Notes under the pieces: model-generated
Database searches by the model: none
What the model was told of the DNA's origin: nothing
What the model saw: only the letters and a program-made list of their open reading frames with translations
In this document: positions 13,301 through 27,189 of the stretch, piece by piece
Layout of the letters: each line of letters begins with the position of its first letter
Position numbering within the stretch: position 1 is the first letter of the stretch
Program-made: the position numbers and the translations under genes
Assembly: GCF_010731595.1 (NCBI RefSeq)
Contig: NZ_AP022582.1
Location: forward strand, 1,488,001 to 1,552,000
Direction of reading: 5' to 3'
From: Mycobacterium seoulense
GTDB lineage: Bacteria > Actinomycetota > Actinomycetes > Mycobacteriales > Mycobacteriaceae
DNA: 64,000 bases

Positions 13301-14536
13301 TTCGGCGACGTCTACCTGGTGGTCGACAACTACCGGGCGCTGGCCGAAGAGAACGAGGTGCTGATCGAGCAGGTCAACGTGATCATCAACCAGGGCCCCT
13401 CGTTCGGGGTCCACGTGGTGGTCACCGCCGACCGCGAATCGGAGCTACGGCCACCGGTGCGCAGCGGCTTCGGCTCCCGGGTGGAGTTGCGGCTGGCCGC
13501 GGTGGAAGACGCCAAGCTGGTGCGCTCCCGGTTCGCCAAGGACGTTCCGGTCAAGCCGGGCCGCGGCATGGTCGCCGTCAACTACGTCCGACTGGACTCC
13601 GACCCGCAGGCCGGTCTGCACACGCTGGTGGCCCGCCCCGCGCTCGCCACCACTCCCGACTACGTGTTCGAGTCCGACAGCGTCATCGACGCGGTCAGTC
13701 GCCTCACGACCGGGCAGGCCCCGCCGGTGCGGCGCCTGCCCGCACGGTTCGACGTGGCGCAGCTGCGGGAGCTGGCGGCGCAAGACACCCGCCAAGGGGT
13801 CGGCGTGGGCGGAATCGCTTGGGCCATCTCCGAATTGGACCTGTCGCCGGTCTACCTCAATTTCGCCGAGAACGCGCACCTGATGGTCACGGGCCGACGG
13901 GAATGTGGGCGGACCACCACGCTGGCCACCATCATGTCCGAGATCGGCCGGCTGTACGCGCCGGGAGCGAGCAGCGCACCGCCGCCGCCGGCGGGCCAGC
14001 CGTCGGCGCAGGTGTGGCTGGTGGACCCACGACGTCAGCTGCTGACCGCACTGGGTTCGGACTATGTCGAGAAGTTCGCCTACAACCTCGACGGCGTCCA
14101 GGCGATGATGGGCGAGCTCGCGGCGGTCCTGGCCGGACGCGAACCCCCGCCCGGTCTGTCCGCGGAAGAGTTGTTGTCGCGGTCGTGGTGGAGCGGCCCC
14201 GAAATCTTCCTGATCGTCGACGACATCCAGCAGCTGCCGGCAGGATTCGATTCGCCGCTGCACAAGGCCGCCCCGTGGGTGACCAGGGCAGCCGACGTCG
14301 GGTTGCACGTGATCGTCACGCGCACGTTCGGTGGTTGGTCGTCCGCGGGCAGCGACCCGATGTTGCGGGCGCTTGCCCAGGCGAACGCGCCGCTGCTGGT
14401 GATGGACGCCGACCCGGACGAGGGCTTCATCCGCGGCAAGATGAAGGGTGGCCCGCTGCCCCGCGGTCGAGGCCTGCTGATGGCCGAGGACACCGGCGTG
14501 TTCGTCCAGGTCGCGGCGACGGACTTGCGCAAATAG
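10367..14536 (+). CDS. eccC5: ESX-5 secretion ATPase EccC5 (three FtsK/SpoIIIE domains, single ORF)
   Basis: 1389 residues from GTG 10367, beginning VKRGFARPTPEKPPVIKPEN. Two membrane helices (residues ~40-65 and ~70-90) precede three FtsK/SpoIIIE-like ATPase domains. Walker A in domain 1 is GTTGSGKST (499-507) with a Walker B ending VVVIDEF; domain 2 has GAGGSGKTT (874-882) but only VVDNY at Walker B; domain 3 has GRRECGRTT (1176-1184), where Arg replaces the usual Lys. Domains 2 and 3 therefore look like substrate-binding, low-activity sites, as known for the family. In M. tuberculosis annotation this is split as Rv1783/Rv1784; here it is plainly one frame. Confidence 0.96.
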   Translation: MKRGFARPTPEKPPVIKPENIVLPTPLSIPPPEGKPWWLIVVGVVVVGLLIGMVAMTFASGSHVFGGAGSIFPIFMIGGVAMMMFGGRFGGQQQMSRPKLDSMRAQFMLMLDMLRETAHESADSMDANYRWFHPAPTTLAAAVGTPRMWERKPDGKDLNFGVVRVGVGMTRPEVTWGEPQNMPTDIELEPVTGKALQEFGRYQSVVYNLPKMISLLVEPWYALDGQREQVLGLMRAIICQLAFSHGPDHVQMVVVTSDLDEWDWVKWLPHFGDPRRQDAAGNARMVYSSVREFAAEQAELFSGRGSFTPRHASSSAQTPTPHTVIVADVVDPQWEFVISAEGIDGVTFFDLTGSSMWTSVPERTLRFDDKGVIEALPRDRDTWMVIDEKPWFFALTDHVSVAEAEEFAQALARWRLAEAYEEIGQRVAHIGARDILTYYGIDDPGRIDFQALWGARTDTMGRSRLRAPFGNRSDNGELLFLDMKSLDEGGDGPHGVMSGTTGSGKSTLVRTVIESLMLSHPPEELQFVLADLKGGSAVKPFAGVPHVSRIITDLEEDQALMERFLDALWGEIARRKAICDSAGVDDAKEYNSVRLRMQARGQDMPPLPMLVVVIDEFYEWFRIMPTAVDVLDSIGRQGRAYWIHLMMASQTIESRAEKLMENMGYRLVLKARTAGAAQAAGVPNAVNLPAQAGLGYFRRSLEDIVRFQAEFLWRDYFPRGLTDDGDEAPALVHSIDYVRPQLFTNSFTPLEVSVGGPELTPAAITNGETLDADGVVGEDEDIEGIRVPKVGTVIIDQLRKIDFEPYRLWQPPLNQPVPIDELVNRFLGHPWQEDYGSARDLAFPIGIIDRPFKHDQPPWTVDTSGPGANVLILGAGGSGKTTALQTLICSAALTHTPEQVQFYCLAYSSTALTTVARLPHVGEVAGPTDPYGVRRTVAELLALVRERKRTFLEYGIASMEVFRRRKFGGEPGPVPNDGFGDVYLVVDNYRALAEENEVLIEQVNVIINQGPSFGVHVVVTADRESELRPPVRSGFGSRVELRLAAVEDAKLVRSRFAKDVPVKPGRGMVAVNYVRLDSDPQAGLHTLVARPALATTPDYVFESDSVIDAVSRLTTGQAPPVRRLPARFDVAQLRELAAQDTRQGVGVGGIAWAISELDLSPVYLNFAENAHLMVTGRRECGRTTTLATIMSEIGRLYAPGASSAPPPPAGQPSAQVWLVDPRRQLLTALGSDYVEKFAYNLDGVQAMMGELAAVLAGREPPPGLSAEELLSRSWWSGPEIFLIVDDIQQLPAGFDSPLHKAAPWVTRAADVGLHVIVTRTFGGWSSAGSDPMLRALAQANAPLLVMDADPDEGFIRGKMKGGPLPRGRGLLMAEDTGVFVQVAATDLRK

Positions 14537-14571
14537 GATTGCCGGTTACCGCTGCGCCGGGGTTGGCTGGA

Positions 14572-16131
<1,560 letters not shown>

Positions 16132-16158
16132 CGGCGTGCGCGACAGGCAAACCGCCGA

Positions 16159-16270
16159 TGAACAACCGGTTGCCGGACATGAACGCCAGTCGACGGGGAG
16201 TGAACATTGGCTGGCCTGGAATGAACAGTTGGCTTCGCGTATCGGCGCACCCGCGGTAACAAACTAATCT
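16159..16270 (+). promoter_or_regulatory. four-copy TGAAC array (PHO-box-like) with TAATCT -10 element
   Basis: TGAAC occurs at 16159, 16180, 16201 and 16222, exactly 21 bases apart. On the other strand each reads GTTCA followed by T or C, like the half-sites bound by actinobacterial PhoP/RegX3 regulators. A TANNNT-type -10 box, TAATCT, lies at 16265-16270, 43 bases from the last repeat. It would drive the PPE gene at 16597 with a leader of about 320 bases. The remaining part of the ferredoxin-PPE gap (16271-16596) shows no gene. Confidence 0.6.
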
Positions 16271-16596
16271 CATTCGCGAGCGACAGTTCGGATAGATGCG
16301 AGCTGTCGCTCGGTTGCTGACAACGGGGATCAATCGAGGCTTAAGGGTGCACGTTGTTCCTGACCGGACGTCCGAAACGCGTGGCTGCAGGCCACATTTG
16401 GGCGCCGCGTCCGGGATATGCAGGATGCGCCGGCGAGCCCGTCGGCCGGGGTGGTGGACCGCGAGGTCTGGGTCGATGATTCCAGAGGTCAGGGGCCCGG
16501 GGGGTGGCGTTTGCTTACGAAGCCGTGACTACGGCCACCACTGATTCCGATGCGACGGTCGAGATTGCAGAGATCGCGACCAACTGAGGAGAACAG

Positions 16597-17838
16597 GTGT
16601 TTGACTTCGGGGCGTTACCGCCGGAGATTAACTCCGGTCGGATGTATGCGGGTCCGGGCTCGGGGCCGATGATGGTCGCGGCGGCCGCCTGGGATGTGCT
16701 CGCGGCCGAATTGGGCACGGCGGCAAGCGGTTACAACTCCATCATCGACGAGCTGACGAACGGGCCCTGGGTGGGCCCGGCTTCGACGTCGATGGTGGCG
16801 GCTGTCACGCCCTATGTGACCTGGCTGAGTGCCGTCGCCGGTCAGGCCGAGGAGAGCGCCGGTCATGCGCGTGCGGCCGCGGCCGCCTTCGAGGCCGCGT
16901 TTGCGATGACGGTCCCGCCGCCGGTGATCGCGGCCAACAGGGTGTTGCTGGCAACGCTGATCGCGACCAACTTCTTCGGTCAGAACACGCCGGCCATCGC
17001 GGCCACCGAGGCCCAGTACATGGAGATGTGGGCGCAGGACGCCGGGGCGATGTACGCCTACGCGGCCTCGTCGATGACCGCGTCGCAGATGACGCCGTTC
17101 GCGGCGCCGCCGCAGACCACCACGCCGGACGGCGAATCCGAACAGTTCGCCGCCGTCACGCAGGCCACCACGCAGCAGGCCGGCAACACCGCGCAGACCG
17201 CCGCCAACACGTCGTCGCAGCTCGCAACGCCGCAGCTGTTGTCGGCCACCACATCGCAAACGACGCAGCAACTCACGACCGCGGCCACGGCACCGACCAC
17301 GACCGGTACCTCGCTGCAGGACGTCCTGCCCAGCCCGACGAACTGGTGGTCGCTCAACCCGGGTAACTACACCGCGATCATCAAGCAGACGCTGCAGGCG
17401 TACTTCGGGGTGGGTATCGGTAACTTCGGCTGGTCGATAGGCCAGCAGTTGACCTTCGGTCCGGGTGGTGGCACGGCGGGTGCCGGTGGTGCCTGGTTCC
17501 CGACCCCGCAGTTCGCCCAATTGGGCCTGGGCAACCTCGGCAACCTGGGCCACACCGCCGGTGCGGTGACCGCGGGCACCGGACAGGCCGCCCAGGTCGG
17601 CGGGTTGTCGGTGCCCCAGCAATGGGCCACGCTGGCCTCCACGGTGAGCCCGGCCGACGCCGCCGAGGCGGAGGCCGCCCCGATCCAGACCGTTTCGGCG
17701 AGCAACCCACCGGGCAACGCCCTGCTGCGCGGCATGCCGACCGGCGCGGTGGGCCGGCGGGCCGGCGCCGCCGCCGGCTATACGCACAAATACGGCTTCC
17801 GCTACAGCGTCCTGACCCGCCCGCCATCGGCCGGATAG
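16597..17838 (+). CDS. PPE family protein, PPE-SVP subgroup (PPE25-like)
   Basis: 413 residues from GTG 16597 (GAGGAG upstream). The ~180-residue PPE domain starts [17 protein letters not shown] and has the WVGPAS turn. The tail carries the SVP motif GGLSVPQQW near residue 340 and ends [20 protein letters not shown] proteins pair with PE proteins and are exported by ESX-5 with EspG5 as chaperone. The tail is related to that of the PPE gene at 19994, and the two head duplicate modules. Confidence 0.93.
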
Positions 17839-17849
17839 GGAACGTCCAA

Positions 17850-17920
17850 GTGAACGGAAGTTGTCCAGTAATGAACAGTCGGCACTAGGGAGGCAAGGCA
17901 CCGCGTGACCCATCTAATCT
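17850..17920 (+). promoter_or_regulatory. two-copy TGAAC array with TAATCT -10 element upstream of the PE gene
   Basis: TGAAC at 17851 and 17872 (21 bases apart), and TAATCT at 17915-17920. The distance from last repeat to -10 box is 43 bases, identical to the copy at 16159-16270; AATGAACAGTYGGC and CTAATCTCA are shared between the two. The predicted transcript starts about 80 bases before the PE gene at 18006. Confidence 0.6.
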
Positions 17921-18005
17921 CACGAGTAAGCCAAGCCCCCGGTGGGCCCGAAGGCGAACCGATCCTCGAGCGCCAGCGAGCCGGGAAAGTAGGGAGGGAC
18001 TTCAG

Positions 18006-18305
18006 ATGTCTTTTGTGACGACGCAGCCGGAGGCACTGGCCGCGGCGGCGGGCAACCTGCAGAGCATCGGCTCGGCGCTCAACGCGCAGAACGCAGCCGC
18101 GGCGGCCCCCACCACGGCGGTCGTCCCGGCCGCGGCCGACGAAGTGTCAGCGCTGACAGCGGCGCAGTTCGCCGCGCATGCCCAGATGTACCAAGCCGTC
18201 AGCGCGCAGGCGGCGACGGTTCACGAAATGTTCGTAAACACCCTCAGCATGAGCTCGGGGTCGTATGCCGTGACTGAGGCGGCCAACGCGGCCGCGACGG
18301 GTTAA
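18006..18305 (+). CDS. PE family protein (PE18-like)
   Basis: 99 residues, PE domain only. The N-terminus [19 protein letters not shown] is family-typical, and SYAVTEAAN near the C-terminus gives the YxxxE type VII secretion signal. An AGGGAGG site precedes the ATG. The stop is 8 bases before the next PPE gene, the usual operon arrangement for a PE/PPE heterodimer secreted by ESX-5. About 90% of residues match the PE at 23201, although third codon positions differ widely. Confidence 0.95.
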
Positions 18306-18313
18306 AGGAGTCA

Positions 18314-19528
18314 ATGATGTTGGATTTCGGGGCGTTACCGCCGGAGGTCAATTCGGCGCGGATGTATGCCGGTCCGGGGTCGGGGTCGTTGATGACCGCG
18401 GCGTCGGCGTGGAATGCGCTGGCCGCGGAGCTGAACTCGGCGGCGCTGAGCTATGACAAGCTGATCACCACGCTCAACAGCGAGGAGTGGATGGGGCCGG
18501 CGTCGGCCGCGATGGCCGCCGCGGCCCAGCCGTATGTGACGTGGATGACGGCGACTGCCGCTCAGGCCGAAGAGGCGGCCACCCAGGCTCAGGCGGCGGC
18601 GGCCGCCTACGAGACGGCGCTGGCGGCGACGGTGCCGCCGCCGCTGGTGGCGGCCAACCGCGCCGAGACCGCCCAGCTGATGGCCACCAACGTCCTGGGG
18701 CAGAACACGCCGATGATCGCGCAGCTGGAGACCCAGTACGGCGAGATGTGGGCGCAGGACGCCAGCGCGATGTACAGCTATGCGGGTCAGTCGGCGACGG
18801 CGACGAAGGTGACGCAGTTCAGCGCCGCCCCCAAGATCTCCAACGACACCGCCCCGGCCACCCAGAGCGCCGCAGTCACGAGCGCGACGACAAACTCGAC
18901 CGCGACCAACACGTCGAAAGTCTTGCAGTCGTTGGCTCAGCCGGCCGCGAGCAACACCAGCAACGTGACCACGGCCGCATCGCAGGCGACCCAGGATCCG
19001 TTCAGCTACATCTGGTACCTGCTGACGGGCCAGTCCACCATCCCGACGAACCTGGGTGCCGCCCTGAACGGCTACAGCCCGTGGGCCAGCTTCTTCTATA
19101 ACACCGAGGGTCTGCCGTACTTCAGTGTCGGTATGGGCAACTTCGGTGTGCAGATGGCCAAGACCCTGGGAGTGATCGGCGGTGCGGCCCCGGCGGCGGC
19201 CAAGGCCCTGCCCGGCCTGGGCGGGCTGGGTGGCCTGCTCGGCGGTGGTGCCGGAGCGGTGCACCCGGCGGCGGCCATCGGCGGGGCCGCCTCCATCGGC
19301 GGCAAGCTGTCGGTGCCGGTGGCCTGGACCGGCGGCCCGGCGATCCCGGCGATGACCCACTCGGCGATTCCGGTCAGCGCCATCAGCGCAGCGCCCGAGG
19401 CCGGGGGACCGGGCAACCTGCTCGGTGGCATGCCCCTGGCCGGCGTCGGCAGCGGCACCCACGCCGGTGCCGGACCCCGATACGGGTTCCGCCCCACCGT
19501 CATGGCCCGACCCCCCTTCGCCGGATAA
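18314..19528 (+). CDS. PPE family protein, PPE-SVP subgroup (PPE26-like, copy 1)
   Basis: 404 residues from ATG 18314, with AAAGGAG upstream; the PPE domain begins [16 protein letters not shown] and contains WMGPAS. The C-terminal third, rich in Gly/Ala, has [10 protein letters not shown] (SVP motif) and ends [14 protein letters not shown]. From about residue 261 to the stop the DNA is identical to the PPE gene at 21574, whereas the upstream two thirds have diverged. Likely partner of the adjoining PE protein and an ESX-5 substrate. A perfect 19-bp hairpin follows the stop. Confidence 0.94.
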
Positions 19529-19530
19529 CC
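19092..19530 (+). repeat. 439-bp exact repeat, copy 1
   Basis: Reading both copies side by side, 19092-19530 is base-for-base identical to 22346-22784, including all silent positions and two bases past the stop codon. Flanking bases differ at once on both sides. This looks like recent gene conversion between the two PPE genes. Confidence 0.93.
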
Positions 19531-19542
19531 GTACGCAGCACG

Positions 19543-19590
19543 CGAAAGACGCTTTAGCGCGCGAAAAGTGCCGCGCTAAAGCGTCTTTCG
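19543..19590 (+). terminator. perfect 19-bp hairpin after the PPE gene
   Basis: CGAAAGACGCTTTAGCGCG at 19543-19561 pairs fully with 19572-19590 across a 10-base loop, 15 bases after the stop of the upstream PPE gene. No long U run follows, as is usual for mycobacterial terminators. It would close the first PE/PPE unit. The copy of the same gene end at 22784 has no such hairpin. Confidence 0.65.
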
Positions 19591-19963
19591 GCGTGGGCTA
19601 CCGGACGGGACTCGCCGGCGCGGATCTGCCGTCGCGAGCTGAGCGCCGTCTTGCCGCGGCGACTTTTCTGCGCCCGGATTTTTTTCCGGCCCCACCCGGC
19701 CGTTCCGCACGTGCGGGCCCGGGCAGCCGAGCAGGAGCATCCGCCCAGTCGCGGTGTTCCCGCAGCTAGCGGCGTCGATCGTCGACGCGACGGACACCCG
19801 GTCCCGATGTGCGCGCCGGTGCGCGAACGCCGGCCGGCGAGCTGATAACCCGCCCGGGCGGTCTCGTCGAGGCGGCACCCGGACGTCGCGTCAACTTAGC
19901 CTTCGCAACAAGCAAGCGAACGCTTGAGGTCGTTCGACCAAGACCAGTTGCGAGGAATTGCAC
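19591..19963. other. 373-base stretch with no convincing gene
   Basis: Short open frames occur on both strands but none has a ribosome site or family resemblance. A 12-base palindrome CCGCACGTGCGG sits at 19705-19716, a possible binding site. The PPE promoter must lie near the right end. Confidence 0.4.
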
Positions 19964-19990
19964 ATGCCGTTCGAACCGGGCGTCTCGTAG
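19964..19990 (+). CDS. candidate 8-codon upstream ORF before the PPE gene
   Basis: ATG 19964 has a good GAGGA site at 19952-19956 and encodes MPFEPGVS before TAG. Only three bases separate this stop from the PPE ATG at 19994, which has no ribosome site of its own. The PPE could be translated by termination-reinitiation. It may also be just a chance frame. Confidence 0.35.
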   Translation: MPFEPGVS

Positions 19991-19993
19991 CAG

Positions 19994-21229
19994 ATGGATT
20001 TCGGGGCGTTACCGCCGGAGATCAACTCCGGCCGCATGTATGCGGGCCCGGGTTCCGGGCCGATGATGGCTGCGGCGGCCGCGTGGGACGAGATCGCCGC
20101 GGAGGTGGCGACGGCGGCCAGTGGCTGCAACTCGGTGGTCTCGGAACTGACCGGTGGGCCGTGGGTCGGGCCTGCGGCGTGGTCAATGGTGTCGGCGGTG
20201 ACGCCTTATGTGAGTTGGTTGGGTGCGGTTGCGGCCTTGGCCGAGCAGACGGCTAGCCAGGGGCGGGCTGCGGCGGCGGCCTTCGAGGCGGCGTTCGCGA
20301 TGACGGTGCCGCCGCCGGTGATTGCGGCCAATCGGATGCTGTTGGCGACGCTGGTCGCAACGAATTTCTTCGGACAGAACACACCGGCGATCGCGGCCAC
20401 CGAGGCCGCCTACATGGAGATGTGGGCCCTGGACGCGGCGGCAATGTATGGCTATACCGCCGCCTCGGCGGCCGCGACCGAGTTGGCTCCGTTTACCTCG
20501 CCACCGAACACCACCAGCCCCGAGGGGGTGGCCCATCAGGTGTTAGCGGTAACACAGGCCGCGCAAGCCCCGGCCGTCGACTCCGCCCGGACCGCGGTCT
20601 CGAGCACCTCGCCGTTCGCCACGGTCGCCGCCCCTCAAGCCGCGACGACGATCAACGCGTCGGACCCGGGGCCGCTGGCCTGGCTATGGAACGCGATCCG
20701 GGACTTCCTGCAGTACGGGCCGCCCACCCCGACCAACAATTACCTGGGGCTCGCACCCTCCATGTACACGGCAGTCCTCAAGCAGACGACCGGTCTGGCG
20801 TATTTTTCGAACGGCCTGGCAAACTTCGGGATGTCGATCGCGCAGCAGTTGACGACCGGTCCCGGTGGTGCCACGGCCGGTGCTGGTGGTGCCTGGTTCC
20901 CGACGCCGCAGTTCGCCCATTTGGGTCTTGGCAACCTCGGCAGTATCGGCGGCGGCGCTGTGTCTGCTGGTACCGGGCAGGCCGCCCAGGTCGGAGCGTT
21001 GTCGGTGCCCCAGCACTGGGCCACGCTGACCTCCGCGGTGAGCCCCGCCAACGCCGTCGAGACGGAGTTCGCCGACGTGCATCCTGGGGCCGCCGCGAAT
21101 CCGCCGGGCAACGCGCTGCTGCGTGGAATTCCGGCCGGTGCGGTCGGCCGGCGTACCGGTGCCGCCGGTTACTCACACAAATACGGATTTCGCCACAGCG
21201 TGCTCACGCGCCCGCCGTCGGCGGGATAG
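19994..21229 (+). CDS. PPE family protein, PPE-SVP subgroup (PPE27-like)
   Basis: 411 residues from ATG 19994, beginning [23 protein letters not shown] domain with WVGPAA; SVP motif GALSVPQHW; end [17 protein letters not shown]. It is the counterpart of the PPE at 16597 in the second PE/PPE module, but protein and DNA have diverged. The start lacks its own Shine-Dalgarno and instead follows a small upstream frame. Expected ESX-5 substrate chaperoned by EspG5. Confidence 0.93.
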   Translation: MDFGALPPEINSGRMYAGPGSGPMMAAAAAWDEIAAEVATAASGCNSVVSELTGGPWVGPAAWSMVSAVTPYVSWLGAVAALAEQTASQGRAAAAAFEAAFAMTVPPPVIAANRMLLATLVATNFFGQNTPAIAATEAAYMEMWALDAAAMYGYTAASAAATELAPFTSPPNTTSPEGVAHQVLAVTQAAQAPAVDSARTAVSSTSPFATVAAPQAATTINASDPGPLAWLWNAIRDFLQYGPPTPTNNYLGLAPSMYTAVLKQTTGLAYFSNGLANFGMSIAQQLTTGPGGATAGAGGAWFPTPQFAHLGLGNLGSIGGGAVSAGTGQAAQVGALSVPQHWATLTSAVSPANAVETEFADVHPGAAANPPGNALLRGIPAGAVGRRTGAAGYSHKYGFRHSVLTRPPSAG

Positions 21230-21573
21230 CAATCGGAAATGCGCACACCACAACCGTTTTCGGCGCGGCCGGATTTTATCCCCGGCGGGCTGCGCCGAGG
21301 ACCGGCCGCGGCAAAATCTGGCGTTCTCGCGCGCGGTTCGGCGCTCTTCATTGGTGCCCGCCGCAACGGTGTTATTCCAGCTCAAGCCCCGCTGGCGGCC
21401 GGCCTATCCGCGCTTCCCCCGCTATTGGTGGCGCCGCTGTGGCCGCCGGCCGAGAGGTCCACGCGCCCGGCGTCGCCGCGATCACCGAATTCGGCAACTG
21501 GCAGCCGACCACATTCGCATTACCGTCAGTGACTACTCAAGCAAACATCCATTACGGATTTAAGGGGTAATCG
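21230..21573. other. 344-base intergenic region between two PPE genes
   Basis: No gene or clear hairpin recognised. AAGGGG at the right end provides the ribosome site for the GTG-started PPE at 21574. GC is lower in the last 80 bases, as expected for a promoter. Confidence 0.35.
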
Positions 21574-22782
21574 GTGTTCGATTTCGGGGCGTTTCCGCCG
21601 GAATTCAATTCGGCGCGCATCTATTCCGGTCCGGGATCGGGGTCGTTGATGACCGCCGCGTCGGCGTGGAACTCGGTGGCTGCCGAGTCGAATGCGGCGG
21701 CGTCGAGCTATGACGCGCTGATCACCGCGCTCAGCAGTGAGGAGTGGCTGGGGCCGGCGTCGGGCGCGATGGCCGCGGCGGTGCAGCCGTATCTGGACTG
21801 GTTGACCGCGACCGCCGCCCAGGCCGAGCTGGCCGCCACCCAGGCTCAGGCGGCGGCGGCAGCCTACGAGACGGCGCTGGCGTCGTCGGTGCCGCCGCCG
21901 GTGATCGCGGCCAACCGGGCACAGACGTCGCAGCTGACCGTGACCAACGTGCTGGGGCAGAACACCCCGATGATCGCGCAGCTGGAAGCCCAGTACGGAG
22001 AGTATTGGGCGCAGGACGCCGGCGCGATGTACAGCTATGCGGCTCAGTCGGCGACGGCCACCAAGAGCCTGTCGACGTTTCAGTCCGCACCGAAGATCAC
22101 CAACGACGCCGGCACGGCCACCCAGGCCGGGACGGTCGCCCGGACCACGGCCAGCACCGCCGCGGGCAACACGGCCAACACCGCGCAAAACGCGGCGACG
22201 ACCACCGCGACCGCGGCCCCTCAGCTCGCGGCCGCGACAACGCAGACGGATCCGTTCAGCGAGATCTGGTTCCTGCTGACCGGGCAGTCCGTCTTGCCGA
22301 CGAACCTGGGGGCGCTCGTGAACGGCTACACCCCGTTCGCCGGCCTCTTCTATAACACCGAGGGTCTGCCGTACTTCAGTGTCGGTATGGGCAACTTCGG
22401 TGTGCAGATGGCCAAGACCCTGGGAGTGATCGGCGGTGCGGCCCCGGCGGCGGCCAAGGCCCTGCCCGGCCTGGGCGGGCTGGGTGGCCTGCTCGGCGGT
22501 GGTGCCGGAGCGGTGCACCCGGCGGCGGCCATCGGCGGGGCCGCCTCCATCGGCGGCAAGCTGTCGGTGCCGGTGGCCTGGACCGGCGGCCCGGCGATCC
22601 CGGCGATGACCCACTCGGCGATTCCGGTCAGCGCCATCAGCGCAGCGCCCGAGGCCGGGGGACCGGGCAACCTGCTCGGTGGCATGCCCCTGGCCGGCGT
22701 CGGCAGCGGCACCCACGCCGGTGCCGGACCCCGATACGGGTTCCGCCCCACCGTCATGGCCCGACCCCCCTTCGCCGGATAA
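21574..22782 (+). CDS. PPE family protein, PPE-SVP subgroup (PPE26-like, copy 2)
   Basis: 402 residues from GTG 21574 with TAAGGGG upstream. The PPE domain starts VFDFGAFPPEFNSARIY with WLGPAS. From about residue 259 to the end, sequence is identical in protein and DNA to the PPE at 18314; the first two thirds are clearly different in DNA and partly in protein (for example FPPEFNSARIYS against [12 protein letters not shown]). So two PPE proteins of this locus have variable, PE-binding heads and one shared, exposed tail. Confidence 0.94.
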   Translation: MFDFGAFPPEFNSARIYSGPGSGSLMTAASAWNSVAAESNAAASSYDALITALSSEEWLGPASGAMAAAVQPYLDWLTATAAQAELAATQAQAAAAAYETALASSVPPPVIAANRAQTSQLTVTNVLGQNTPMIAQLEAQYGEYWAQDAGAMYSYAAQSATATKSLSTFQSAPKITNDAGTATQAGTVARTTASTAAGNTANTAQNAATTTATAAPQLAAATTQTDPFSEIWFLLTGQSVLPTNLGALVNGYTPFAGLFYNTEGLPYFSVGMGNFGVQMAKTLGVIGGAAPAAAKALPGLGGLGGLLGGGAGAVHPAAAIGGAASIGGKLSVPVAWTGGPAIPAMTHSAIPVSAISAAPEAGGPGNLLGGMPLAGVGSGTHAGAGPRYGFRPTVMARPPFAG

Positions 22783-22784
22783 CC
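22346..22784 (+). repeat. 439-bp exact repeat, copy 2
   Basis: Identical to 19092-19530 with a constant offset of 3254 bases. The left border falls inside a variable linker of the PPE gene and the right border is two bases after its stop. Confidence 0.93.
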
Positions 22785-23082
22785 CCGTTGATGGCTCGAC
22801 ATGACCTACGGGTTAACAGAGGGGGTCGGACGCGGGCGGGGACGCCGCGGTCCCGGGCCCGTCGCGATGAGGCTTGGGGCCATCGCGGGCGGCCCATCCA
22901 CCGGTTGCTAGCGGATCGTCGGGAGATAACGGCAAACGGATTTTTAAGGGGCTTGCCCTGCGGCAGCGCCCCGGCAGGCGTCGACCAGGTTCTTTACCCA
23001 CCGACTGCGTCACAGTTTGCTGTGACGAAGCTGAAAGGGAGGCGGTCCGGGCCAAACGCTGTTACTGTGGCGTTACTAAAAA

Positions 23083-23162
23083 TGAATTCGTCGTACCGTC
23101 ACGTGAACAGTTGCAAACAGGCGGCTTCCGAAAGAGCTTCACAGGCCGCTGTCATCTACTCT
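23083..23162 (+). promoter_or_regulatory. TGAAT/TGAAC pair at 21-bp spacing with TACTCT -10 element
   Basis: TGAAT at 23083 and TGAAC at 23104 repeat the 21-base spacing of the two other arrays; TGAACAGTTGC matches their core TGAACAGTYGGC. A possible -10 box TACTCT is at 23157-23162, 53 bases on, one helical turn further than in the others. It would start a short leader for the PE gene at 23201. The rest of the 22785-23200 gap has no gene. Confidence 0.5.
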
Positions 23163-23200
23163 CTGCAGAGTCGGGGATTGAACTTAGGAGGGAATCAAGC

Positions 23201-23500
23201 ATGTCTTTCGTGACCACACAGCCGGAGGCTTTGGCTGCGGCGGCCGGAAACCTGCAGGCCATTGGCTCAACGCTGAGCGCTCAGAACGCGGCTGCCGCCG
23301 CCCCCACGACCGGGGTGGTTCCGGCTGCGGCCGACGAGGTGTCGGCGCTGACGGCGGCGCAGTTCGCGGCGCACGCGCAGATGTACCAGGCGGTCAGCGC
23401 TCAGGCCGCCGCCATTCACGAGGCGTTCGTGAACACTCTGTCGATGAGCTCGGGCTCCTACGCTGCGACCGAGGCAGCCAACGCAGCTGCTGCGGGCTGA
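23201..23500 (+). CDS. PE family protein (PE19-like)
   Basis: 99-residue PE-only protein from ATG 23201 with TTAGGAGGG upstream. Starts [28 protein letters not shown] carries the YxxxE export signal. Closely related to the PE at 18006. In M. tuberculosis the gene at this place, pe19, is a target of phosphate control, which fits the repeat array upstream. Unlike the first PE it is followed by 291 bases and then esxM rather than by a PPE gene. Confidence 0.94.
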   Translation: MSFVTTQPEALAAAAGNLQAIGSTLSAQNAAAAAPTTGVVPAAADEVSALTAAQFAAHAQMYQAVSAQAAAIHEAFVNTLSMSSGSYAATEAANAAAAG

Positions 23501-23791
23501 TCGGACCGGCGGTTGGATGGTTTGGGGACGGACGTCATCGACGTGGTCTTCCGCCGCCCGACCGCCCAGCTACCGATGATCTCGGGGGCTGACGGCCGGA
23601 CAACTCAAACGCCGGGGTTCGGGTTTGACGTCCGTCTCACCGTGTTACAGCGACCGGTGGCCGCCGGCTGACGGGAAGGGGGGATCATCCTTTTGTATTC
23701 GGCTCGGCGGTTCGCCAGCGCGTGACCGGTCCGGCCATCGTCGTAACCACAGCAAGTATCTGAGTACTCACTTATTAAGGAGACAGCCAGC

Positions 23792-24088
23792 ATGGCAACA
23801 CGTTTTATGACGGACCCGCACGAGATGCGGGCGATGGCGGGCCGCTTCGAGGTGCACGCCCAGACGGTTGAGGACGAGGCCCGCAAGATGTGGGCGTCGT
23901 CGATGAACATCGCCGGCTCTGGCTGGAGTGGTCAGGCGCAGGCGACCTCGTACGACACCATGGGTCAGGTCAACCAGGCCTTCCGCAACATCGTCAACAT
24001 GCTCCACGGGGTGCGCGACGGGCTGATCCGCGACGCCAACAACTACGAGCAGCAAGAGCAGGCCTCGCAGCAAATCCTCGGCAGCTAG
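23792..24088 (+). CDS. esxM: WXG100 protein EsxM (QILSS/CFP-10-like subfamily)
   Basis: 98 residues from ATG 23792 with AAGGAG at a proper distance. The helix-turn-helix hairpin has SGWSG (WXG turn) and the C-terminal YEQQE gives YxxxE, the secretion signal. Matches the EsxM/J/K/P/W group; the frame is full length, without the premature stop known from some M. tuberculosis lineages. It pairs with EsxN, whose gene follows after 50 bases, and the dimer is exported by ESX-5. Confidence 0.95.
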
Positions 24089-24138
24089 CGCTAAAAACCG
24101 CGGCTGCGTACCATTCCAGACATTAGGAGAACACCGTT

Positions 24139-24423
24139 ATGACAATCAATTACCAGTTCGGCGATGTCGACGCCCACGGTGCCTTGATCCGCGCCCAGGC
24201 CGCGTCTTTGGAGGCTGAGCACCAGGCCATCGTTCGTGATGTGCTTGCTGCGGGTGACTTCTGGGGCGGCGCCGGTTCGGTGGCCTGCCAGGAGTTCATC
24301 ACCCAGTTGGGTCGCAACTTCCAGGTGATCTACGAGCAGGCCAACGCCCACGGGCAGAAGGTGCAGAGCGCCGGCAGCAACATGGCCAGCACCGACAGCG
24401 CCGTTGGGTCCAGCTGGGCCTAA
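24139..24423 (+). CDS. esxN: WXG100 protein EsxN (ESAT-6-like, Mtb9.9 family)
   Basis: 94 residues from ATG 24139 (TAGGAG upstream), beginning MTINYQFGDVDAHGALIRAQ. FWGGAG is the WXG turn. This is the Mtb9.9 subfamily with EsxI/L/O/V. Heterodimer partner of EsxM. A degraded second copy lies at 32395. A 14-bp hairpin follows the stop. Confidence 0.95.
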   Translation: MTINYQFGDVDAHGALIRAQAASLEAEHQAIVRDVLAAGDFWGGAGSVACQEFITQLGRNFQVIYEQANAHGQKVQSAGSNMASTDSAVGSSWA

Positions 24424-24436
24424 CCCCAACTTCAGG

Positions 24437-24471
24437 CGCGGCAGCACACCACACACCGGTGTGCTGCCGCG
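24437..24471 (+). terminator. 14-bp perfect hairpin between esxN and espG5
   Basis: CGCGGCAGCACACC at 24437-24450 pairs fully with 24458-24471 over a 7-base loop. It lies 13 bases after the esxN stop. It could end, or thin out, transcription so that abundant EsxM/EsxN are made with less of the downstream machinery, or protect the esxN message from 3' decay. Confidence 0.65.
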
Positions 24472-24510
24472 TCCTGCGGTTACCGTGCACTTTGAACCCT
24501 TGAGGTAGTG

Positions 24511-25413
24511 ATGGACCAACAGACCGCCCGCACCGACATCACCGTTAACGTCGACGGTTTCTGGATGCTCCAGGCCCTTCTGGACATCCGGCACGTCGCG
24601 CCGGAGTTGCGCTGCCGGCCATTTGTTTCTACCGACTCGAGCGACTGGCTCAACGAGCATCCCGGCATGGCGGTGATGCGCGAGCAGGGCATCGTCGAAA
24701 ACGATCAGGTGAATGAACATGTGGCCGCTCGGATGAGGGTGCTCGCCGCGCCGGACCTCGAGGTCATCGCCCTGCTGTCGCGGGGCAAGCTGCTCTACGG
24801 CGTGGTCGACGACGAAAACCAGCCACCCGGTTCGCGCGACATTCCCGACAACGAGTTCCGCGTGGTGCTCGCGCGTCGTGGTCAGCACTGGGTGTCGGCG
24901 GTACGCGTCGGCAGCGACATCACCGTCGACGACGTCGCCATCGCCGACAGCGCCTCGATCGCCTCCCTGGTCTTGGACGCGCTGGAGTCGATACACCACG
25001 CCGAGCCCGCGGCGATCAACGCGGTGAACGTGCCGCTGGAAGAGATGCTGGAAGCGACGAAGTCGTGGCAGGAGTCGGGCTTCAACGTGTTTTCCGGCGG
25101 TGACCTGCGGCGGATGGGCGTCAGCGCCGCCACCGTGGCCGCGCTGGGACAGGCCCTCTCGGATCCGGCTGCCGAGGTCGCGGTGTACGCGCGCCAATAC
25201 CGGGACGATGCGAAGGGCCCCAGCGCCTCGGTGCTGTCGCTCAAAGACGGTTCCGGTGGCCGCATCGCCCTCTACCAGCAGGCGCGGACGGCCGGGTCGG
25301 GCGAAGCCTGGCTGGCCATCTGCCCGGCAACCCCCCAGTTGGTGCAGGTGGGCGTCAAGACCGTGCTGGACACGCTGCCCTACGGCGAGTGGAAAACCCA
25401 CAGCAGGGTCTGA
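24511..25413 (+). CDS. espG5: ESX-5 PE/PPE-specific chaperone EspG5
   Basis: 300 residues from ATG 24511 (MDQQTARTDITVNVDGFWML), strongly matching Rv1794. TGAGG at 24501-24505 is the ribosome site; the GTG just before the ATG is less likely. EspG5 is a cytosolic protein that binds the tip of the PPE domain, keeps PE/PPE dimers soluble and delivers them to ESX-5. Its position between substrates and core membrane genes is the standard order. Confidence 0.95.
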   Translation: MDQQTARTDITVNVDGFWMLQALLDIRHVAPELRCRPFVSTDSSDWLNEHPGMAVMREQGIVENDQVNEHVAARMRVLAAPDLEVIALLSRGKLLYGVVDDENQPPGSRDIPDNEFRVVLARRGQHWVSAVRVGSDITVDDVAIADSASIASLVLDALESIHHAEPAAINAVNVPLEEMLEATKSWQESGFNVFSGGDLRRMGVSAATVAALGQALSDPAAEVAVYARQYRDDAKGPSASVLSLKDGSGGRIALYQQARTAGSGEAWLAICPATPQLVQVGVKTVLDTLPYGEWKTHSRV

Positions 25414-25549
25414 CATTCGACGAAACATAAAGTTCACCAATGTCTTTGCACTCAACATGCGGTTGAGAAGCCAACACGGCATACTTCTCTAAGAGGTTCA
25501 GCAAATCTCTAACCACTGTCACCACAGGTTTAATCGCAAGGCGGGGTAG

Positions 25550-25681
25550 ATGGAATTCGGAATAGTCGAGCTGCACTTTCCCGGGGGCCGCAGCCCCTCG
25601 GAAAGCGGGCCGGCGCACACCCTCGCCCGGCTGGCGGCGCGGGGTTACACGTTCACGACGGTAAGGGGTTCAGGGCGATGA
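25550..25681 (+). CDS. candidate 43-residue small ORF coupled to eccD5
   Basis: ATG 25550 with AGGCGGGG just upstream begins a frame MEFGIVELHFPGGRSPSESG ending in TGA at 25679-25681. That stop overlaps the eccD5 start as ATGA, the usual sign of translational coupling. No family resemblance. It could be a leader peptide, a real small protein, or chance; high-GC codon pattern is only partly convincing. Confidence 0.35.
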   Translation: MEFGIVELHFPGGRSPSESGPAHTLARLAARGYTFTTVRGSGR

Positions 25682-27189
25682 CTGCGGTTGTTGAAGCGCT
25701 ACAGCCTGACGTTGAGGGAATTTCGCAGCCTCGGGCGGTCGTGGTCGGCGTCATGGCCGGCGCGGGCGTACAGATCGGCGTCCTGCTGGACGCCAACGCC
25801 CCCGTCTCGGTGATGACCGAGCCGCTGCTGAAGGTGGTGAACAGCCGCCTCAGGGAACTCGGCGAGACCCCGCTGGAGGCCACGGGCCGCGGCAGGTGGG
25901 CTCTCTGCCTCGTCGACGGCAGCCCCTTGCGGGCTACCCAGTCCCTGACCGAACAGGACGTCTACGACGGCGACCGGCTGTGGATCCGATTCATCCAGGA
26001 CACCGAGCATCGCTCGCAGGTCATCGAGCACATCTCCACCGCCGTCGCGGCGGACCTTAGCAAGCGGTTCGCCGCGATCGACCCCGTCGTCGCGGTGCAG
26101 GTCGGCGCGTCGATGGTCGCCGCGGGCGTCACCGCCGCCTCGGGCTTGCTGCTCTGGTACCGGTGGCACCACAACTCCTGGATGCCGACGGCATACTCCG
26201 CGGTGATCGCCGCGGCGGTGCTGGGCGTTTCGCTGATGCTGCTGATGCGGGCACGCACCGATCAGGACCGCCGCATCGCCGACATCATGCTGCTGAGCGG
26301 CCTGACCCCGCTCACGGTCGCCGCCGCGGCGGCTCCCCCCGGGGGAGTCGGTTCCCCGCACGCGGTGTTGGGCTTCGGCGTGCTCACCATCGCCGCGATG
26401 CTCGCCGTGCGTTTCACCGGACGCCGGTTGGGGCTTTACACCGCGCTCATCACCGTCAGCGTGGTCACGGCGCTTGCGGCCCTGGCCCGCATGGTCGCGA
26501 TGACCAGCGCCGTGACGCTGCTGACCAGCGTCGTCCTGGTGTGCGTGCTCGTGTACCACACCGCTCCGGCGCTCTCGCGCCGGTTGGCCGGCATCCGTCT
26601 GCCGGTGTTCCCCTCGGCGACCAGCCGGTGGGTGTTCGAGGCCCGGCCCGACCTGCCCACCACCGTGGTTCGCTCCGACGGTGGACCCCCGGTGCTCGAG
26701 GGGCCCGCGTCCGTCCGCGACGTCTTGGTGCAGGCCGAGCGCGCCCGTTCCTTCTTGACGGGCCTGCTGATCGGGCTCGGTGTGCTGATGGTCGTCTCGT
26801 TGACGGCGTTGTCGGACCCCCACACCGGCCAGCGCTGGCTGCCGCTCCTGCTGGCCGGCTTCAGCGCCGGGTTCCTGATGCTGCGCGGACGCTCCTACGT
26901 CGACCGCTGGCAGGCGATCACCCTGGCCGTCACCGCCGTCCTCATCGTCGGAGCCGTGGTGGCGCGGTACGCGCTGGTGTTGCAGTCGCCCCTGGCGGTG
27001 TCCGTCAGCGCGGCGATCCTGGTTCTGCTGCCGGCGGCCGGCCTGACGTCCGCGGCCGTGGTGCCCAACACGATCTACAGCCCGCTGTTCCGCAAGTTCG
27101 TGGAATGGATCGAATACCTCTGCCTGATGCCGATCTTCCCGCTGGCATTGTGGTTGATGAATGTCTATGCAGCCATCCGCTACCGGTAG
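25678..27189 (+). CDS. eccD5: ESX-5 membrane channel component EccD5
   Basis: 503 residues from ATG 25678. The first ~100 residues form the ubiquitin-like cytosolic domain (VVVGVMAGAGVQIGVLLDA...), followed by about eleven membrane helices from residue ~135 to the end, finishing [11 protein letters not shown]. Two EccD copies per protomer line the ESX-5 membrane complex. Matches Rv1795. The 3' end overlaps the start of mycP5. Confidence 0.95.
   Translation: MTAVVEALQPDVEGISQPRAVVVGVMAGAGVQIGVLLDANAPVSVMTEPLLKVVNSRLRELGETPLEATGRGRWALCLVDGSPLRATQSLTEQDVYDGDRLWIRFIQDTEHRSQVIEHISTAVAADLSKRFAAIDPVVAVQVGASMVAAGVTAASGLLLWYRWHHNSWMPTAYSAVIAAAVLGVSLMLLMRARTDQDRRIADIMLLSGLTPLTVAAAAAPPGGVGSPHAVLGFGVLTIAAMLAVRFTGRRLGLYTALITVSVVTALAALARMVAMTSAVTLLTSVVLVCVLVYHTAPALSRRLAGIRLPVFPSATSRWVFEARPDLPTTVVRSDGGPPVLEGPASVRDVLVQAERARSFLTGLLIGLGVLMVVSLTALSDPHTGQRWLPLLLAGFSAGFLMLRGRSYVDRWQAITLAVTAVLIVGAVVARYALVLQSPLAVSVSAAILVLLPAAGLTSAAVVPNTIYSPLFRKFVEWIEYLCLMPIFPLALWLMNVYAAIRYR

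Follow-up and report, generated by a model that had tools for sequence, protein, structure and literature searches.

Repeats at an exact 21-bp pitch before three PE/PPE genes of a mycobacterial ESX-5 locus: a conserved, putative tandem operator of the OmpR family

The window analysed here is a stretch of 64,000 nucleotides of Mycobacterium seoulense (contig NZ_AP022582.1, positions 1,488,001 to 1,552,000), which contains an ESX-5 locus where three PE/PPE genes are each preceded by TGAAC-type repeats spaced at exactly 21 bp. The locus comprises a cytochrome P450 gene, PE and PPE genes, two WXG100 genes (Pfam) and an EccD gene. The P450 gene (14572-15882, minus strand), our anchor for the relatives, is by its position presumably CYP143. 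It is followed on the plus strand by a PPE25-like gene (16597-17838; PF00823 PPE and PF12484 PPE-SVP), a PE18-like gene (18006-18305; PF00934 PE) and a PE19-like gene (23201-23500; PF00934 PE). A further PPE gene lies after the PE18-like gene (18314-19528), and the EccD gene occupies 25678-27189 (NCBIfam TIGR03920). The number 5 of EccD, as well as those of the PE and PPE genes, is assumed by analogy with the order of the M. tuberculosis locus. A ferredoxin query (frame from 15937) had no match to any NCBIfam family.

The first array, before the PPE25-like gene, consists of four TGAAC repeats on the plus strand (16159, 16180, 16201 and 16222; 16159-16226). TAATCT, the putative -10 hexamer of this promoter (16265-16270, +), lies 43 bp past the last of them, counted, as in all cases below, between the first letters of the last repeat and of the hexamer. 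The second array, before the PE18-like gene and also present in relatives, has two TGAAC repeats (17851 and 17872; 17851-17876, +), again with a putative -10 of sequence TAATCT at 43 bp (17915-17920, +). At the PE19-like gene the third array combines TGAAT at 23083 with TGAAC at 23104, and a putative -10, TACTCT (23157-23162, +), follows at 53 bp. These repeat positions, hexamers and distances agree exactly with the original prediction. The third array is nevertheless longer than first described, since GTACC at 23093 and CAAAC at 23114 continue it on a 10-11 bp lattice (23083-23118, +) and two GTTAC half-sites 11 bp apart (23061 and 23072; 23061-23076, +) form its distal part. The first array has a distal half-site as well, GCAAAC (16147-16152, +; reverse complement GTTTGC), beside the GTTCA of its first unit. 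The pattern is far above chance: TGAAC occurs 112 times on both strands of the window, from which about 7.5e-8 four-copy runs at 21 bp would be expected, against the one seen. TGAAY pairs at 21 bp number 8 in the window, with a mean of 0.12 and a largest value of 2 in 200 first-order Markov sequences, and TGAAC pairs with one mismatch allowed give 11 matches against 1.96 expected.

The 21-bp phase in orthologous regions, on which the original prediction stood or fell, is strictly conserved. We compared 33 Mycobacterium loci anchored on the P450 gene, whose use as an anchor introduces no selection for arrays; the genome of the window and its closest relatives may be missing from the set, and M. 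scrofulaceum and M. parascrofulaceum are among the closest loci listed. Within the 750 bp before the P450 gene, four exact TGAAC occur in a run in 28 of the 33 loci and at least three in 31, while 92 of the 93 TGAAY spacings of 12-35 bp equal 21, the last being 23. Relative to the window, no locus has an indel inside the 68-bp array, in the 12-bp flank with GCAAAC (16147-16158) or in the 16-bp -10 segment. Indels are found just before the array in 31/33 loci, between array and -10 in 7/33, and in the leader segments in 16 to 33 of 32-33. Spacer letters differ among species and TGAAC is almost unchanged; the distal half-site reads GCAAAC in 27 loci, GCGAAC in five and GGAAAC in one. At the PE19-like promoter, among 13 aligned loci chosen for having the TGAAT/TGAAC pair, GTTAC-n6-GTTAC-n6-TGAAT-n16-TGAAC is exact in 12, L043 having GTTAA for the second GTTAC, and a further C-n-AAC half-site stands 10 bp on in all 13. 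The same lattice, GTTAC included, recurs in more distant ESX-5 species, for example in the 3.3-Mb genome G075, where the -10 distance is not kept.

The distance from array to -10 is similarly constrained. Among 113 distinct arrays (55 from the P450 set and the window, 40 from loci found mostly via the array itself, and 18 from further ESX-5 loci), TAnnnT follows the last TGAAY at 42-44 bp in 80, at 52-54 bp in 27 and at neither distance in six. Lone TGAAY sites of the same loci, taken as a control, have TAnnnT at 42-44 bp in 24 of 1895 distinct cases. Four of the six other arrays have it at 64-65 bp, that is, one unit further, and in three of these the extra unit holds a near-TGAAC. In three P450-anchored loci (L026, L030 and L032) the unit nearest the promoter has decayed, differing from TGAAC by one or two letters, and the -10 stands 64 bp past the last intact repeat. 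The 53-bp class consists mainly of the PE19-like promoters of the window's clade (53-54 bp in the clade) and its neighbours. In distant ESX-5 loci, whose EccD5 is about 62% identical, the -10 of the PE19-like promoters is found at 43 bp (L163, L164, L166, L123 and L131), one helical turn less than in the window's clade. The size of this shift, roughly one turn between 43 and 53 bp, suggests that helical face is important.

Judged by a profile of two array units, the arrays appear to form an operator class that extends across the ESX-5-bearing species of the genus and that, in the window's own genome, is found at this locus only. In that genome, for which scoring covered 150 of 1232 first-look candidates, the profile recovers the arrays at E values of 3e-6, 1e-4 and 7e-4, the third array only at 0.59, with chance level reached from 0.94; no target outside the ESX-5 locus rose above chance among the candidates scored. 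A survey of 158 genomes of the genus, with 42 candidates scored per genome and a match defined as E up to 0.02, gave matches in 50, namely in 44 of the 66 genomes with EccD5 (at least 60% identity) and in 6 of the 92 without. Of these six, G020, G104, G119 and G128 show no ESX-5 gene nearby, G131 has a P450/PPE25-type promoter (L125), and G021 was left out of the reading. The best match lies below 0.0048 in 39 genomes, and all 38 that were checked (G174 was left out) adjoin ESX-5-type PE, PPE or CYP143-like genes. Eight weaker matches that were fetched, with E between 0.0048 and 0.018 (L165, L167, L168, L169, L172, L173, L174 and L180) do not lie beside such genes and were taken as chance. Of the 22 EccD5-bearing genomes lacking a match, 20 were fetched, and 17 were readable after three stretches proved too short. 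A TGAAY pair at exactly 21 bp is present in 13 of the 17, one has a degenerate pair and three have none, with no TGAAY pair at 20 or 22 bp in gene orientation in any of them; thus, the profile undercounts. A raw count of the three-copy pattern (99/248 genomes; reversed control 7/248) was dropped as a measure, because only 12 of the 30 loci listed lie beside ESX-5 genes and one unrelated-looking sequence recurs in many genomes among the matches listed. M. tuberculosis is probably absent from the 396 genomes available, as a CRISPR repeat known from its complex had no match in any of them.

Phase, conservation, lattice, distance to the -10-like hexamer and association with ESX-5 can all be read directly from the sequence, and they mark the arrays as what appears to be a real, strictly phased operator class common to the three promoters, behaving like a tandem operator of the OmpR family. 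The family and identity of the regulator, the class of the promoter and the direction of control we infer. That an OmpR/PhoB-family regulator, with RegX3 as its likeliest member, occupies the arrays and activates the three PE/PPE promoters is a reading in which our confidence is somewhat better than even. Each 21-bp unit would provide one strong half-site (TGAAC/GTTCA) and a weaker one 10-11 bp away, and two to four regulator dimers would sit side by side on the same helical face, ahead of a promoter of SigA type. Activation would take place from a class-I-like position, given the 43 bp that separate the last strong half-site from the -10, a distance one turn longer at PE19. A common operator before PPE25, PE18 and PE19 would couple three ESX-5 transcripts, most probably under RegX3 during phosphate limitation. 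In M. avium subsp. paratuberculosis infection, PE19, PPE25 and PPE26 of the ESX-5 region are reported to fall together, with a structural gene showing no significant change (available part of PMC9469519); such a joint fall is what a shared operator would allow.

Among individual regulators, RegX3 is probably the best candidate and GlnR its main rival: the 10-11 bp lattice argues for the OmpR family and the TGAAC/GTTCA core for RegX3, while the PE19 array keeps GlnR and MtrA as candidates. The known RegX3 site is, we assume, that between ppe27 and pe19. The RegX3 control put forward in the original prediction agrees with published accounts from the same locus and gene in M. tuberculosis, in which RegX3 binds esx-5 genes directly and regulates them (PMC6016242) and a pstA1 mutant overexpresses pe19 in a RegX3-dependent manner (PMC5513712); it is put in question by a GlnR ChIP-seq peak at PE19 (PMC4950008), all three sources being available in part. 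The accessible portions of the two RegX3 reports do not describe the PPE25 and PE18 arrays or the 21-bp phase, and a literature search, mostly without reach into subscription papers, turned up no reference to 21-bp repeats in these promoter regions.

The actinobacterial PHO box of PhoP/RegX3 consists of GTTCACC direct repeats of 11 bp, according to the part of PMC4415409 available. GTTCA, the minus strand of TGAAC, is the core of PHO-type boxes at the pstS promoters of Mycobacteriales, and it is present in every unit of the first two arrays. We built an 18-bp PHO matrix from 15 of 31 pstS loci, picked for a visible GTTCA-type pair at 11 bp; in most of the 15, half-sites resembling GTTCAYC stand near a -10 on the coding strand, at relative positions 0, 11 and about 33. 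This matrix ranks half-site pairs of the arrays 4th, 5th and 7th of about 128,000 window positions, and it places in its top 0.01% 31 of the 32 three- and four-copy arrays of the P450 set and the window, together with 7 of the 25 two-copy arrays. Because the arrays had been found via TGAAC, the core GTTCA was then removed from the score: judged by their companion half-sites, 74 of 162 array sites lie above the 95th percentile, and 45 above the 99th, of a background of 835 GTTCA sites outside arrays. At +10 and +11 from GTTCA, the pstS half-site matrix scores -6.1 and -6.4 on average; at nine other offsets its means range from -11.4 to -14.5. When the matrix columns were permuted (54 thinned units), the summed score at +-10/11 was reached by 5 of 5040 and the value at +11 by 41, figures which, like the ranks, are indications, as related loci are not independent even after thinning. 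Head-to-tail half-sites about 10-11 bp apart, typical of OmpR/PhoB-type operators, thus give maxima at +-10/11 whether the matrix comes from pstS or from amtB; by themselves, these companion-site tests do not tell RegX3 from GlnR.

The arrays therefore share with the PHO box the GTTCA core, the 10-11 bp companion lattice and the tandem layout, and the pstS matrix recognises the first two of them. To this extent the PHO-box assignment of the original prediction stands; in its pitch, its orientation and the PE19 element it does not. Several observations weigh against it, and with it against RegX3. The canonical pitch of 11 bp, or 22 per pair, is replaced by the 21 bp noted above, and pstS loci show steps of 11 or 22 bp, with a step of 12 occurring once in each of two loci. 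TGAAC belongs to the coding strand and precedes a -10-like hexamer by 43 or 53 bp, whereas the pstS boxes point the other way, toward the gene, and stand next to the -10. For reasons of pitch and orientation, the arrays are not classed as a canonical PHO box. They also differ in alternating strong and weak half-sites and in reaching up to four copies, and the third array scores weakly with the PHO matrix (best rank 37), its GTTAC-n6-GTTAC having the appearance of a GlnR-type or MtrA-type box and not of a PHO box. Many of the 31 pstS loci lack a GTTCA-type pair at 11 bp; of the four pstS promoters in the genome that holds the window, two contain a GTTCA box, canonically oriented in each, and none carries the extended element. 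In addition, the pstS half-site matrix gives scores at -38, -17 and +4, all off the lattice, similar to those at -11 and -10, a GlnR matrix is likewise enriched on the lattice (see below), and the p-like figures are inflated by the kinship of the loci.

GlnR, the nitrogen regulator of the same family, might instead be the main occupant, or occupy the operator alongside RegX3, with phosphate and nitrogen signals in competition there, a possibility we hold only tentatively. The GTTAC-n6-GTTAC of PE19 fits the GTnAC-n6-GTnAC of S. venezuelae GlnR (PMC3662644, available in part). TGAACA resembles the M. smegmatis GnAACA site save for its first base, and the amtB promoters of relatives repeat GAAACA-type sites in tandem every 22 bp, oriented like TGAACA along the coding strand. 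The boxes are tandem at L182 and other amtB loci, some of which have further boxes about 32 bp upstream. Using matrices from 37 amtB boxes, we found the GlnR a-site enriched at -11 and +10, with 84 of 162 array sites above the 95th percentile at +10 and a permutation sum reached by 67 of 5040. On the minus strand, the GlnR box brings 13 of the 25 two-copy arrays into its top 0.1% and six into its top 0.01%. In M. tuberculosis, Table 2 of PMC4950008 gives GlnR ChIP-seq peaks of 5.38-fold at PE19, 50.83 at PE8 and 48.07 at PE32, with PE8 expression changed 4.75-fold by GlnR. PE8 (Rv1040c) and PE32 (Rv3622c) belong to the ESX-5a and ESX-5c duplicates (accessible part of PMC4852179), and for the ESX-5b region Rv1195-Rv1198 no GlnR peak is listed in the part of PMC4950008 available. 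However, the peak at PE19 is weak and GlnR alters expression there only 1.33-fold, the value for PE32 being 0.81 (PMC4950008). The full-box amtB matrix places none of the 32 three- and four-copy arrays in its top 0.01% (seven strand-hits at 0.1%), TGAAC is a poorer core for GlnR than for the PHO box (2.0 vs 3.7 sd), and the amtB -10 distance is about 28, by eye at few promoters. Against the AC-n9-AC arrangement of GlnR sites (GnnAC, GnAACA), then, the PE19 GTTAC pair fits and the a-site is enriched, while the amtB matrix fails on the three- and four-copy arrays. Compared with the GlnR operator (Gn2AC-n6-GnAACA in the available part of PMC3662644, and amtB), the likeness lies in tandem repeats near 11 and 22 bp, in orientation, and in the GTTAC pair and ChIP peak at PE19; the difference lies in the core, which in the arrays is TGAAC instead of GAAAC, and in the PPE25 arrays, which the full-box matrix misses. 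More specifically, and in our view somewhat improbably, the arrays could be a shared phosphate-nitrogen operator private to ESX-5, with one set of strictly 21-bp-phased half-sites recognised by RegX3 on one strand and by GlnR on the other. If so, export of PE/PPE proteins would be set jointly by phosphate and nitrogen.

Set beside RegX3, a regulator from outside the OmpR family, such as AraC/XylS-like monomers on 21-bp direct repeats or a regulator dedicated to ESX-5, seems distinctly unlikely. A 21-bp repeat would agree with AraC/XylS-type sites, the strict 21-bp pitch differs from that of pstS and amtB operators, and the profile finds the element at one locus of the own genome only; yet a preference for the 10-11 bp lattice is seen with half-site matrices from two regulators of the OmpR family. 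Use of the arrays by MtrA, or by another OmpR-family regulator with GTnAC-type half-sites, is more doubtful still. Its motif, c-G-T/A-n-A-C/T-c in direct repeat with a four-base spacer, shares the OmpR-type arrangement and the GTnAC-like half-sites, and PPE genes are among its targets (PMC6265350, available in part). However, the arrays' core, TGAAC, is not a GTnAC half-site, and the accessible main text of PMC6265350 mentions neither ESX-5 nor pe19. Chance, or a functionless simple tandem duplication, can scarcely be credited: the units are partly alike, as duplicates would be, but in the 33 loci as in distant ESX-5 loci the spacers change and the phase, the half-sites and the distance to the -10 persist.

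A conserved phased operator at three promoters would offer a compact target for asking which nutrient signals set PE/PPE export, and its 21-bp pitch a clean phase test of upstream activation by an OmpR-family regulator. Independently of this proposal, a possible 5' hairpin (16276-16312, +) opens the leader of about 320 nt of the PPE25-like gene. It has 87.1% of cells paired over 16 distinct sequences, a value equalled by none of 500 shuffles. Its covariation is mixed: 6 of 500 shuffles attain its score, but 159 attain its number of pairs with two-sided changes. A Rfam scan of 14000-26000 gave a single match at E up to 1, far below the cut-off. Directly 3' of the hairpin stands TTGCTGAC (16314-16321), and TTGCTGA(C/G) occurs in leaders of PE19-like genes of distant ESX-5 loci (e.g., L163, L164 and L166). 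Finally, upstream of the third array there is a perfect palindrome, CGTCACAG-tttg-CTGTGACG (23008-23027); TTTGCTGTGA is retained in most of the 13 aligned loci and the left half in some only.

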